A DNA stretch of 64,000 bases from Paenibacillus sp. CC-CFT747. Lineage in GTDB: Bacteria; Bacillota; Bacilli; Paenibacillales; NBRC-103111. The translations under genes were made by a program, and so were the position numbers. The stretch spans positions 1,999,501-2,063,500 of the forward strand of contig CP106741.1 of assembly GCA_030323305.1 (NCBI GenBank). The letters run 5' to 3'. The notes beneath the pieces were generated by a model. The model was not told where the DNA came from. It made no database searches and saw only the letters and a program-made list of their open reading frames with translations. Positions 29,011 through 35,025 of this stretch are shown in pieces; position 1 is the first letter of the stretch, and each line of letters begins with the position of its first letter.

Positions 29011-29044
29011 ACGCTTACAATAAATGGGAAAAGGGAGAGGCGCC

Positions 29045-31097
29045 TTGAAGGCAACTGTCTATGCCGTAAGAAGAAGCGGCCGGTGGTCCTGGAACGCATC
29101 CTTGGACATCCGGGTCGATCAAAGGTTTTGGTTCCGCCATGGTGCCGGCACCGGCATGATCGGGCTCGAACCAAATCTGTCCTGGGGACAAGCCCTTTGG
29201 CTCCGAAAAGCCTTGGAAGAGGCAAGGTTTCAGCCAAAGGACCTCAACGAAGTGAGGAGGGAATTCGCGGCACGTTTGATTCAGCTTGGCCTAACCGAAA
29301 AGGCGTCAGAAGCACTGAAGCCTGTTTTCTTATCCGGCGACCGGATGGAGAAAACAGGCTTCGCTGCGTTCAGCGAAGAAAAAGCGAGAGCCGAGCAGGC
29401 GCTGGCCGCCCGGCTGGCGGAGCCGATGCGCGGGCGTTCCCTGCTCCTGGAGGAGCTCGTCCGCCTGCTTGCGGACGAAGGGAAAGGGGCCGACGGCCTG
29501 GTGTCGGCCCTGCAGCTTGCCGCTCTCGAAGGGAGGGTGCGGCTCGCCGCCGGCGTGGACCGGATCGACCGCCGCTTTCTGTGGCGGTCGACGGTTCAGT
29601 TCCGCTGCCGCCGGTGCGGAAGCGGAGAGGAGGGCATGAACGTCAGTGAATGTCCCTACTGCGGCGGGCCGTGCCCGTACTGCGAGCGCTGTCTGACCAT
29701 GGGCAGGGCACGGTTCTGTGCCCTGCTCGTGGAGGGGGCGGAGGCGGGACACGGGAGGGCGGTGGACGTGGAGGCGGCGCTGGCCCGGGAGCTGGCGCTG
29801 GCGTTGCTTCGGCGGCGGGGCCGCAGGGGCACGGGACGGGTCGGCAAGGCTTAGTTACCGCTCAGGCGGGAGCGTTGTCCGGCCGAGCTGACCGCAGCGG
29901 AGCTGCAATGGCCGCCGCATCCGCCCGGCCGGGAGCGCCGCAAGCCTTGGCCGCCCGCGCCGGTCTCCTGCGGGACGACGACACGGTCATCACCGGACGG
30001 CTGTGGGGCTTGAGCCCGGCCCAGACCGGAGCGTCGCAGGCGGGCCTGGCTTTCCTGCGGGAGAGCGCCGCCCGCCAAGCCGCTGGGGGAGCGGCCAAGC
30101 CCCGTTTCCTCATCTGGGCTGTGACGGGTGCCGGCAAGACGGAGATGATCTTCCCGCTGATTGAGTACGAGGTGAACCGCGGCCGCGCCGTCTGCGTGGC
30201 AACCCCGAGGCGCGATGTGGTGCTGGAGCTGCTGCCCCGCATCCGCCGGGCGTTTCCGGACAACACAGTCGTGGCGTTGTACGGCGGAAGCCCGAACAAA
30301 TGGGAAAGGGGCGAGATTACGCTCGCCACGACGCATCAGCTGATGCGGTTCCGGGAGAGCTTCGATCTGGTCGTCATCGATGAGCTCGATGCCTTTCCTT
30401 ACCACAATAACGATCAGCTGCAGTATGCGGCTCTTCAGGCGGCCAAGCCGACGGGACGATACATTTTTCTATCGGCCACACCGCCGGCAGCTTTGCAGAG
30501 GGAGATTCGGAAGGGAAAGCTTCCCCACGCCAAAGTACCGGTTCGCTACCACCGCCATCCCCTCCCCGTTCCAGTTCTGCTGCGGTTGAAGCCCCTCCGG
30601 AGCTTTGCCGAAGGAGGCCATCTGCCGGTCAAGCTGGTGCAGACGATTCGGGCCTCTCTGGACCGGGGAGCGCAGATGTTCGTCTTTGTTCCGCAGATCA
30701 AGCTGGTGGAGCCCTTGGTCGCTCTGCTGCAAAAAGCTTTCCCGGGCATATAGTAGGCGGAACCTCCTCCAAGGATGCGGAGCGGACGGAGAAGGTGGTC
30801 GATTTCCGCCAGGGCCGCATTCGGATGCTCGTCACCACCACCATCCTGGAACGGGGAGTAACGGTGCCGAAGACCGACGTTGTGATCCTCGACGCAGGTT
30901 CTCCCCTGTTTGATGAAGCCGCCTTGGTCCAAATGGCGGGCCGGGCCGGCCGGTCCAAGGATGACCCGAAGGGGCGGGTGTATTATGCCGCTGCAGAGGT
31001 AACGGGTTCGCAGGCCGGTGCCATTCGCCAGATCACCCGTATGAACCGAATCGCCCGCCGGGAGGGCTACCTGCTTCCCGAGGAGGAGAGAACATGA
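29045..31097 (+). CDS. comFA: Competence DNA helicase ComFA, two frame breaks
   Basis: ComFA is a DEAD-box-like ATPase needed for uptake of transforming DNA. The first part ends with a four-cysteine zinc motif (CRRCGSG, then CPYCGGPCPYCERCLTMGR). The helicase core follows: IWAVTGAGKTEMIFPLIEYE (Walker A), VVIDELDAFPY (DEXD), IFLSATPP (motif III) and, near the end, VTTTILERGVTVPKTDVVIL and QMAGRAGRSKDDPKGRV (motifs V-VI). The frame breaks once between about 29780 and 29850, in GC-rich runs, and once at 30744-30746 (GGG should be GGGG, restoring FPGHIVGGTSSKDAERTEK). TTG 29045 after AAAGGGAG is the likely start. The stop overlaps the comFC start by 4 bp. comFB is absent. Confidence 0.88.
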
Positions 31098-31882
31098 ACG
31101 ATAACCAAAGCAAGGCGGGAGCGGGCCTCTGGCTGCAACGAATGAAGCATTTCATCGAAGGGACCAGCCGCATGCTGGCCCCTTCCCGCCGCGAATGCCT
31201 CATCTGCCATTCCCCCATCCAGGGAGAGCCGCCCCCGCTCAGCCTGTGCCGGGGGTGCTTCGGGCAAATTCCCTGGATTACGGACATCCGCTGCCCCATG
31301 TGCGGCCGCTATGAAGAGTGCCATGACTGCAAACGGCGGACAGAGGCCTTTTTCCGCTGCAGCCGTAGTGCGGTCCGGTATAACGAGCTGATGAAGGAGT
31401 GGCTCGCCCTCTACAAATACCGGGGGCAGGAGAAGCTTCTTCCCGTTTTCGGAGGGATGCTGTATCACGGCTATAGCAAGCTGCTTCAGAGCGGGGAGTG
31501 GAACGGCCAAGCCCCCGACCTGATCACCTTCACCCCGGTTAACGAGCAGCGTCTCCTGGAGCGCGGCTTCAACCAGGCCGAACAGCTGGCCCGGCATCTG
31601 GGCCGAGAGGTTAAGCGGCCGGTCGTTCCTCTGCTGAGACGGGTCCGCTATACCGGGAAGCAGAGCTTCAAGACCCGGGCGGAGCGGCTGGCGGATCTCG
31701 CGGGGGCTTTTTCCCTGGAAGAAGATGCGGTTCGGAGGCTGAGGGCTGGCCATCATGGCAGTCCGCTTCGGATCGTCCTGGTGGACGACATCTACACGAC
31801 GGGGAGCACGCTTAACCAATGCTCGGCTGTCATCTGCTCGGCCCTCCCGGCAGAAGTCTATGGTTTGGCCTGGGCCAGGTAA
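31094..31882 (+). CDS. comFC: ComFC, phosphoribosyltransferase-like competence protein
   Basis: ComFC is a double-zinc-finger, PRTase-fold protein required for DNA uptake and thought to work with ComFA. The 262-residue protein has Cys pairs at the N terminus (CLICHS, CRGCFG, CPMCGRYEECHDCKRR) and the PRPP-binding loop IVLVDDIYTTGSTL near the C terminus, preceded by the conserved ERGFNQAEQLARHL and R-x5-Q segments. ATG 31094 overlaps the comFA stop (ATGA), indicating translational coupling. Confidence 0.95.
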   Translation: MNDNQSKAGAGLWLQRMKHFIEGTSRMLAPSRRECLICHSPIQGEPPPLSLCRGCFGQIPWITDIRCPMCGRYEECHDCKRRTEAFFRCSRSAVRYNELMKEWLALYKYRGQEKLLPVFGGMLYHGYSKLLQSGEWNGQAPDLITFTPVNEQRLLERGFNQAEQLARHLGREVKRPVVPLLRRVRYTGKQSFKTRAERLADLAGAFSLEEDAVRRLRAGHHGSPLRIVLVDDIYTTGSTLNQCSAVICSALPAEVYGLAWAR

Positions 31883-32013: not shown

Positions 32014-32433
32014 ATGAGCTTAAATGTTGACAACTGTCCGCGCTGCGGAAAAATGTACCAGAAGAACCCTAGGGACCTGTGTCCGTCCTGCATCAAGGAA
32101 ATGGACCTCCAATACGAGAAATGCATCGCCCACTTGCGGGCCAACCGGGGAATCGACCTCCAAGAGCTGAGCGAAGCGACCGGGGTACCGGTCCGGCAGA
32201 TCATCAAGTTTATCCGCGAGGGACGCATTTCCATTATCAACACGCCGAATATCCATTACCCTTGCGAGGTATGCGGAGGCCCGATCCGGGACCAGGCTAT
32301 CTGCGACTCCTGCCGGCAGCGCCTTTCGAAGGAAGTCTCCAACACGCTCGAGGACGAGAAGAGAAGGGAAGAGCTTCGGCGGCGGCAGAACCAGACGGGC
32401 TTTAACATCAGCGAACGGCTGAGGGACCGGTAA
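32014..32433 (+). CDS. yvyF: YvyF-type flagellar protein with zinc fingers
   Basis: A 139-residue protein with two Cys4 zinc clusters: CPRCGKM with CPSC near the N terminus, and CEVCGG with CDSC near residue 85-105. Between them lies a helix-turn-helix-like segment (IDLQELSEATGVPVRQIIKFIREG). The charged C-terminal tail (EDEKRREELRRRQNQ) is typical of the family called flagellar operon protein TIGR03826/YvyF. Its position directly before flgM is conserved. The function is not established; a regulatory role in flagellar gene expression is suspected. Confidence 0.88.
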   Translation: MSLNVDNCPRCGKMYQKNPRDLCPSCIKEMDLQYEKCIAHLRANRGIDLQELSEATGVPVRQIIKFIREGRISIINTPNIHYPCEVCGGPIRDQAICDSCRQRLSKEVSNTLEDEKRREELRRRQNQTGFNISERLRDR

Positions 32434-32550: not shown

Positions 32551-32606
32551 TAACATATAAGGATTCGGCTGCCGATAATAGGAGTAAGGATTATCGGTGT
32601 TTTTTT
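32551..32606 (+). promoter_or_regulatory. Terminator whose 5' arm is also a sigma-D -10 element, before flgM
   Basis: CCGATAAT (32572-32579) pairs with ATTATCGG (32590-32597) and is followed by seven T (32600-32606): a terminator for the comF-yvyF unit. The 5' arm is also GCCGATAA (32571-32578), a sigma-D -10 with TAAC (32551-32554) as -35 at 16 nt. A transcript starting near 32585 would lack the 5' arm and escape termination. Confidence 0.6.
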
Positions 32607-32634
32607 ATTTATAACCGAATGAGGTGAACTGACC

Positions 32635-32913
32635 ATGAAAATTAACGAAACTCCAAGAGTAGGAAACGTTAACCCCTATAAGAGACAACAGCAGGAGGCC
32701 CGAGAGGCTCTAACGACCGGAAAGAAGGGGAAAGCGAAGGACGAGGTGCAGATATCCGCGGAAGCCAAGGAGCTGCAGGAAGCCCAAGGGACCCAGCAGA
32801 GCGCCGAGCTGCGCAGCAAACGGATCGCCGAGCTGAAGCAAGCGGTCAGCACCGGAACGTATCATGTGGATGCCGGCAAGATCGCCGAGAAGCTTCTCCC
32901 TTACATCAAGTAA
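32635..32913 (+). CDS. flgM: Anti-sigma-D factor FlgM
   Basis: FlgM binds and inhibits the flagellar sigma factor (sigma-D/28) until the hook-basal body is done. The 92-residue protein matches the family: N-terminal MKINETPRVGNVNPYKR, the middle DEVQISAEAKELQ, and the C-terminal sigma-binding helix RSKRIAELKQAVSTGTYHVDAGKIAEKLL. GAGGTGAACTG precedes ATG 32635. It opens the flgM-flgN-flgK-flgL unit, and a sigma-D type promoter upstream would give the usual autoregulation. Confidence 0.95.
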   Translation: MKINETPRVGNVNPYKRQQQEAREALTTGKKGKAKDEVQISAEAKELQEAQGTQQSAELRSKRIAELKQAVSTGTYHVDAGKIAEKLLPYIK

Positions 32914-32944
32914 ACGCAAACCATAAAGAAATCAGGTGAACCGC

Positions 32945-33445
32945 ATGGCGCTTCAAGGATTAATCGAATCGATGGAGAAACTGACCGCCCTCCACGGCAT
33001 GCTGATCGAGCTCGGCAAGCAGAAAACAAGTGTCCTCGTCCATAACGAGGTCGAGCAGCTCAACCGGCTGGTCCAGCAGGAATCCCAGGTGGTCCGGCAG
33101 ATCACGGAATGGAACGGCAAGCGGGAGGCGGCGGTCATGGAGTTCCTGCTTCACAAAGGCTTCCGGCCGAGCCCGAACGTGACCGTAAGCGAGCTGACGA
33201 AGCTGATTTTTAACGCGGAGGAGAAGCAGACCGTGCTGAACCTTCAGCAGCTCCTGTTGGGCCGGATTACCGAGCTCCGCCAGCTGAATGCGGTCAACCA
33301 GCAGCTGATCGAGCAGTCGCTGGCTTTTATCGATTACTCCTTGGATGTCGTACTGGGTCCCCCGGAGGACGAGGCGGTTTACCGCAATCCGATGCAGCAG
33401 AACTCCCGTGCGAAGCGCAACGGTTATTTTGATACAAGAGCATAA
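32945..33445 (+). CDS. flgN: FlgN, flagellar hook-filament junction chaperone
   Basis: FlgN is the export chaperone for FlgK and FlgL. This 166-residue, strongly helical protein has the family pattern: LIESMEKLTALHGMLIELGKQKT near the start, an N-terminal coiled region, and LLLGRITELRQLNAVNQQLI in the last helix. ATG 32945 is chosen; AGGTGA at 32934-32939 is its ribosome site and contains the spurious GTG start at 32936. Location between flgM and flgK is diagnostic. Confidence 0.9.
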   Translation: MALQGLIESMEKLTALHGMLIELGKQKTSVLVHNEVEQLNRLVQQESQVVRQITEWNGKREAAVMEFLLHKGFRPSPNVTVSELTKLIFNAEEKQTVLNLQQLLLGRITELRQLNAVNQQLIEQSLAFIDYSLDVVLGPPEDEAVYRNPMQQNSRAKRNGYFDTRA

Positions 33446-33478: not shown

Positions 33479-35025
33479 ATGAGATCAACTTTTCACAGTC
33501 TGGAAATATCGAAGAGGGCGTTGTTCACCCAGCAGGCCGCTCTTTCCACCACGGGGCATAACATTGCCAACGCCAACACGGAGGGCTATTCCCGTCAGGT
33601 CGTCAACATGAAGGCGGCGCGCCCGATCGAAGCGGTGGGGCTTTCGCATTCCACGGCTCCTGGTCAGCTCGGCATGGGGGTCGAATTCGATTCGATCACC
33701 CGAATCCGCGAGAAGTTTCTGGACGATCAGTTCCGTAACGAGAACAAATCCTTGGGCAGCTGGTCGGTCCGTCAGGATACGCTCGAGAAGCTGGAGACGA
33801 TCCTCGCCGAGCCTTCGGAAACGGGGATACGAACGGTCGTCAACAATTTCTTCAAGGCGTGGTCCGATCTCAGCAAGGACCCGGAGAAGACCGACGGCCG
33901 CAAAATCGTCCGGGAAGCCGCCATGGCCATGGCCGATGCCTTCAATACGACGAGCCGCCAGCTGGAGGACCTGAAGGGGGACCTTACGGCGAACATTAAC
34001 GTCAAAATCAGCCAGGTGAACACCCAGATCGATTCGATCTCTAGGCTGAATGCCGAGATCCAGCGGGTTGAGGGCTTGGGGGACAACGCCAACGACCTGA
34101 GGGACCAGCGGGACCTGTTGACCGATCAGCTTTCGAAGATCGTCAACATTCAAGTGCAGGACTCCCCCAAGGCTATACGATCACGATGGGATCGGCTGCT
34201 TTGGTAGAAGGAGCGCAAGCGACCCCGTTAACCGTGGATTCCGTCAATGCCGCGTATGGTTCGGGCGCTCTGAACAATGGAGAAATCCATGGAATGATTC
34301 TGTCCCGGGACAAGTATGTCGCCGATTACCAGAACCAGATCGATACGCTGGTTAACACCATTGCCAATGGAGAAATCGAGATCACGATTCCGAAGGGCTC
34401 GGTTCTTCCCAACAACACGGTTCTGGGCAATAAAACCTACACTGGAGCGGACCGTGAACTTAAGGAAGACCTGACGGTTAAGGTTAACGGCCTGAACGGG
34501 CTGCACAAGCTCGGGTATATCTTCAGCGATACGCCGACGGCGGCGGGAGACTTCTTCACCGGGACGACGGGGGCGACCTTTCAGGTGAACCCGGATATCG
34601 TCAAGAATGCAAACCTGATCGCCACCTCGCTCCGGACAACGGGAACCGGTACATCCGATACCGTAATCAGCGGGAACAACACGATGGCCCTGCTCATCTC
34701 CGGCTTGACCAACACCAAGTTCACGTTCCCGGCAGCCGTCGCCGGAACCCCGGACACGAAGGCAACGGTCGACGACTTTTTCCGTTCTACGGTAGGCCAG
34801 TTAGGCGTACAAACCCAGGAGGCCACCCGCCAGGCGGGCAATCAGAGGGTCCTCACCGACCAGGTGGATTCCAGAAGACAATCCGTCAGTCAGGTGTCCT
34901 TGGACGAGGAAATGTCCAACATGATCAAGTTCCAGCATGCTTACAATGCGGCGGCACGCGCCATGACCACGTTCGACGAAATGCTGGACAAGGTCATCAA
35001 CAGCATGGGAGTCGTAGGCAGATAA
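33479..35025 (+). CDS. flgK: Flagellar hook-associated protein 1 FlgK, one frame break
   Basis: FlgK is the first hook-filament junction protein. The N-terminal rod-type signature (FHSLEISKRALFTQQAAL, then GHNIANANTEGYSRQ) and the C-terminal segment VSQVSLDEEMSNMIKFQHAYNAAARAMTTFDEMLDKVINSMG (shown here in part) are clear. In the C-run 34164-34168 one C is missing; restoring it joins VNIQVQDSP to QGYTITMGSAALVEG. The restored length is about 515 residues, within the family range. A ribosome site (GGAAGG) precedes ATG 33479. flgL follows after 37 bp. Confidence 0.93.

Follow-up and report, generated by a model that had tools for sequence, protein, structure and literature searches.

In Tn10/IS10 an internal promoter lies inside an inverted repeat, and only transcripts that enter from outside hold both arms of the repeat and fold, while transcripts from the internal promoter are exempt; the hairpin hides the ribosome-binding site of the transposase and acts on translation. 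This protection against external promoters was reportedly described by Davis, Simons and Kleckner in 1985, in a study cited in PMC2965389. The Bacillus fla/che operon is guarded by an intrinsic terminator that excludes upstream transcription, and deletion of one of its arms raises fla/che expression. In B. subtilis the comF-yvyF-flgM genes are listed as one operon (PMC8849057), and high ComK leads to readthrough from comFA into flgM, which raises FlgM and represses motility, according to the account of Liu and Zuber (1998) given in PMC4793158.

Here we describe the comFC-yvyF-flgM-flgN locus of Paenibacillus sp. CC-CFT747, analysed within a stretch of 64,000 nucleotides of contig CP106741.1 (the window). 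An intrinsic terminator is very probably superimposed on the sigma-D promoter of flgM, as judged from the DNA and its relatives, in such a way that transcripts from upstream would be stopped and sigma-D transcripts exempt. The predicted exemption logic resembles that of the Tn10/IS10 protective hairpin: the flgM promoter lies within an inverted repeat, with the -10 element as 5' arm and the predicted start in the loop, and RNA from the internal promoter would lack one arm. Unlike the Tn10/IS10 hairpin, that of flgM has a U-tract, which points to termination of transcription, and leaves the ribosome-binding site outside the stem, and because of this position of the ribosome site we do not count it as a member of the Tn10/IS10 kind; it also sits on a chromosomal flagellar regulator, and its arm is the -10 element of an alternative sigma factor. 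With an ordinary intrinsic (Rho-independent) terminator at an operon end it shares a GC-containing stem, a short loop and a U-tract, but its 5' arm is the -10 element of the next gene and is conserved as a unit with the promoter. The fla/che terminator likewise keeps out upstream transcription, but it belongs to the upstream gene and an overlap with a -10 element is not reported for it. The gene order and the sigma-D promoter before flgM are those of B. subtilis comF-yvyF-flgM, whereas the named loci of the B. subtilis group have no hairpin with U-tract and ComK-driven readthrough occurs there. In the open-access papers searched, no account of a flgM promoter joined to a terminator came to light, and no Rfam family matches the element.

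Organization of the flgM locus

The features of the locus are collected in Table 1; the yvyF stop lies 141 nt before the -10 element in the window. The comFA (29024-31097) and flgK (33479-35025) genes are both broken by frameshifts in the window and intact in a genome of the same species (L283), and they are either pseudogenes or the result of assembly indels, the completeness of the genome being 90.65%.

Table 1. Coordinates of the predicted flgM terminator-promoter region and its neighbouring genes in the window
Feature	Coordinates	Strand	Evidence or remark
comFC	31094-31882		Same direction as yvyF, flgM and flgN
yvyF-like zinc-ribbon gene	32014-32433	+	ORF and zinc-ribbon Pfam matches; co-directional, directly upstream of flgM
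-35 element TAAC	32551-32554	+	17 nt before CCGATAA; identical spacing in the family
Sigma-D -10 element GCCGATAA	32571-32578	+	CCGATAA at 32572-32578, near-universal in the family
Terminator 5' arm CCGATAAT	32572-32579	+	32570-32579 counting G-U pairs; pairing, folding, covariation
Hairpin loop, 10 nt	32580-32589	+	Predicted sigma-D start inside, about 32584-32586, from the distance to the -10 element
Terminator 3' arm ATTATCGG	32590-32597	+	Pairing, folding; tracks the 5' arm across lineages
T7 tract	32600-32606	+	About 93 of 101 family genomes retain a T-rich tail
flgM Shine-Dalgarno GAGGTGA	32621-32627	+	Sequence
flgM, anti-sigma-D factor	32635-32913	+	PF04316, E 6.3e-18; ATG at 32635
flgN	32936-33445		Same direction as comFC, yvyF and flgM

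The original prediction had called the -10 element a full sigma-D element. The promoter type stands, since TAAC-N16-GCCGATAA fits a sigma-D promoter of the form TAAA-N15 to N17 followed by GCCGATA-type elements, but the match is not complete: the -35 TAAC is slightly weak, with TAAA found at equal spacing in nearly all relatives, and the -10 element ends in AA where the B. subtilis consensus has AT. A cognate sigma factor is provided by the one FliA/WhiG-type (FliA/SigD-type) match above the cut-off in the genome (261 bits). The predicted sigma-D start falls in the loop, in a motif aGTAnTAA that is common to relatives.

The CCGATAA of the -10 element forms the 5' arm of an 8-bp hairpin (9 bp with G-U) that is backed by T7 and stands 29 nt before flgM; CCGATAAT pairs perfectly with ATTATCGG over the 10-nt loop. 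The isolated hairpin has a folding energy of -9.3 kcal/mol, matched by 1 of 200 shuffled sequences (z -3.6), and is the local optimum also within a 137-nt readthrough RNA. RNA beginning at 32585 is missing the 5' arm, and the only stem open to it has 5 bp and a 15-nt loop. Two central claims of the original prediction are borne out by these data: sequence, folding and covariation agree that the sigma-D -10 element doubles as the 5' arm of a terminator with T7 behind, and folding of both RNAs indicates that the readthrough RNA can form the hairpin and the RNA from 32585 cannot. The stem-loop expected of an intrinsic terminator is indicated by folding energy, z-score and covariation, and the U-tract by the T7. 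This tract lies where it had been placed, but it does not follow the perfect stem directly, as a TG intervenes unless two G-U pairs are counted. That TG, together with the modest energy of the window stem and its 8 perfect pairs, counts against reading the hairpin as a terminator.

The Shine-Dalgarno sequence begins 24 nt beyond the 3' arm, outside the stem. No further terminator-like site was found on the + strand of the yvyF-flgM interval by a terminator scan restricted to loops of up to 8 nt, a limit that made the scan pass over the 10-nt-loop flgM hairpin itself. The sigma-D leader can form a 5-bp stem, TCGGT/ACCGA at 32594-32618, that re-uses the terminator 3' arm and is a possible leader structure; a comparable competing stem is found in genus g17 (L009, L013).

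Conservation and compensatory change

Conservation in relatives had been proposed as a check of the element, and the arrangement proved to be conserved in the family, in most of the other families sampled within the order and, beyond the order, in eleven families of the class. Of the 104 genomes in the family sample, 101 yielded flgM, and the DNA upstream of the gene was examined in every one of these. TAAA-N17-CCGATAA stands some 60 nt ahead of flgM at nearly all of these loci, and a complementary arm follows downstream in nearly all as well. Constrained folding recovered the hairpin with its U-tract in 90 of the 101; three genomes (G016, G025, G088) had been miscalled because the fold ran past the U-tract, and the corrected total is about 93. 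Two apparent exceptions (G021, G087) have the same hairpin further upstream. The true exceptions are genus g8 (G009-G013), in which the U-tract is gone and the arms are partly kept, genus g7 (G007, G008), which has lost the hairpin, and G089, which has a weak U-tract; the hairpin without U-tract in g8 and the hairpin loss in g7 count against the terminator reading. In genus g8 the flgM promoters L038, L084, L066, L023 and L099 lack a U-tract and retain the hairpin arms at least in part; they may form a natural series of losses, or the hairpin may serve some other role there.

Outside the family, the arrangement occurs in sampled families of the order (f2, f4, f6, f8, f9, f10) and of the class (f12, f17, f20, f21, f22, f27, f29, f31, f37, f44, f45), and the offset from arm to arm is nearly fixed at 24-30 nt throughout. 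In the class sample it is absent from families f13, f18, f23, f25, f28, f38, f42, f46, f47 and others, and the hairpin with U-tract is absent from all 14 named loci of the B. subtilis group. A scan of viral contigs for FlgM found none.

Covariation was assessed with 64 aligned representatives of 12 families. The covariation score was 0.282 against 0.154 (sd 0.012) after shuffling, with none of 500 shuffles as high, and it fell to 0.09-0.12 when the partner column was slid by 1-3 positions; the shuffles ignore relatedness, whereas the slid controls preserve it. Two-sided changes were found at 7 of the 12 pairs, and in different families the 3' arm matches the variant of the -10 element (CCGATTA/TAGTCGG, CCGATGA/TCATCGG, CCGATAC/GTATCGG, TCGATAA/TTATCGA). 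Outside the -10 element, genera lengthen the stem into the promoter spacer, pairing CCCACCGATAA with ATCGGTGGG, CTCCACCGATAA with TCGGTGGGG and CTTCACCGATAA with TTATCGGTGAAG. These extensions co-vary, as arms exchanged between genera pair worse (swap fractions 0.000-0.027 in genera g21 and g18). When the downstream arm was shuffled locus by locus, most loci reached no more than a modest p of 0.005-0.1, owing to the T-rich region and to the G-U pairs admitted; covariation across the class is the more powerful test. RNAalifold recovered only 4 pairs from the alignment, since loops of differing length displace the inner pairs. Deep conservation combined with compensatory changes argues that the arrangement is not due to chance and is a selected feature.

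Apparent specificity to flgM

A covariance model of the element matched the flgM site of this genome with E 5.7e-9 and no other site better than E of about 3, and the flgM site was the top match in nearly every family genome that had a match. Nine other sites matched in relatives are plain gene-end hairpins or terminators without a sigma-D promoter, and for this reason the fusion of promoter and terminator appears specific to flgM. In this genome the pattern TAAA-N14 to N17-CCGATA is not commoner than its reversed control (43 versus 37), and a hairpin of this kind with a U-tract behind it occurs at none of the three best sigma-D-like sites (L118, L123, L127).

Alternative explanations

At nearly all loci flgM is preceded by a co-directional yvyF homologue, whose stop is usually just 30-50 nt before the -10 element. 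The hairpin could thus be merely the 3'-end terminator of comF-yvyF squeezed into a short gap, with the sigma-D exemption a by-product instead of a selected function; compact packing is common, and any fixed sequence easily gains a terminator arm. We consider this rather unlikely, as the hairpin remains locked to the -10 element, at an arm offset of about 25 nt, even with yvyF ending far upstream (141 nt in the window, 265 nt in G067, 478 nt in G180), is kept where yvyF has been replaced (G103) or displaced (G091), and has a 3' arm that follows changes of the -10 element in several families. A plain yvyF terminator was rejected as a full account, and the hairpin most likely belongs to the flgM promoter. 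In G103 (L031, 53-1294) an AraC-like regulator gene takes the place of comF-yvyF, and the hairpin stands 45 nt past the gene end; in G091 (L016, 1972-3060) a tnpB/OrfB-like ORF on the opposite strand lies upstream of flgM.

A role at the RNA level other than termination, namely the processing or stabilisation of an mRNA shared by comF and flgM, would fit genus g8 with its arms retained without a U-tract, and the genes can be co-transcribed in B. subtilis (PMC4793158, PMC8849057). We hold such a role to be improbable, since the T-rich tail follows the hairpin in most family genomes and the off-target matches of the covariance model are ordinary intrinsic terminators. Still further down in probability, and hardly credible, is a palindrome acting as DNA, either as the operator of a regulator or as a mirrored antisense sigma-D promoter with the 3' arm as its -10 element. 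In many genomes the 3' arm likewise reads CCGATAA on the minus strand, and the covariance model finds weak minus-strand matches at the site, but the T-rich tail is kept on one side only, and the sequence and extension of the arms vary freely with pairing kept, which a protein site would forbid. The antisense sigma-D promoter was rejected because the minus strand of the window has no TAAA at the proper distance and because in genus g18 the 3' arm GAATCGGTGGG still pairs although the mirrored -10 element is gone.

Relation to ComK

The original prediction had flgM insulated from competence transcription, and this part did not hold. ComK was not found in this genome and is absent from 103 of the 104 family genomes, the one match being marginal. 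Among the flgM-bearing genomes of the class sample, a strict scan found the element in 0 of 25 with clear ComK and in 24 of 54 without ComK (Fisher p 1.4e-5, for genomes that are not independent). On a tree of YvyF and FlgM, ComK changes 3 times and the hairpin 7 times, which leaves two or three independent contrasts, for which no significance is reachable. That the element is found where ComK is not is a striking pattern and statistically a weak one. Insulation from ComK-driven transcription was rejected on the absence of ComK here and of the hairpin in all ComK-bearing genomes, and it follows that the blocked source would be comF-yvyF or other readthrough in general.

Proposed mechanism and significance

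We propose that a polymerase arriving from comFC-yvyF, or from any upstream gene, would transcribe the -10 element and form the full hairpin with its U-tract, and that this transcript would stop about 20 nt beyond the flgM start site. Sigma-D RNA would start in the loop with the 3' arm only and form no hairpin; exempt because its 5' arm is missing, it would read on into flgM-flgN-flgK. Transcription of flgM and the genes behind it would then occur only while sigma-D is active, and the purpose may be that sigma-D alone governs the dose of anti-sigma factor and of the hook-filament junction genes. The incoming polymerase would still cross the promoter, and strong upstream transcription might occlude it and lower flgM, which would offset the insulation.

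With this design, one 8-nt word would be both the promoter recognition site and a terminator arm, insulating the gene from upstream while its own promoter remains effective, and such a design could be copied in synthetic circuits. Conservation over families with differing -10 sequences provides a natural mutational series. The wide spread of the hairpin leads us to suggest, tentatively, that a self-exempting flgM terminator-promoter may have been the ancestral state for a large part of the class Bacilli and may have disappeared from ComK lineages, opening readthrough from comF to flgM. If this were true, the loss of the hairpin would have opened the B. subtilis coupling of competence to motility shut-off, and the evolution of this link would become testable. 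The element would also predict at which loci flgM depends strictly on sigma-D and at which upstream signals can drive it.
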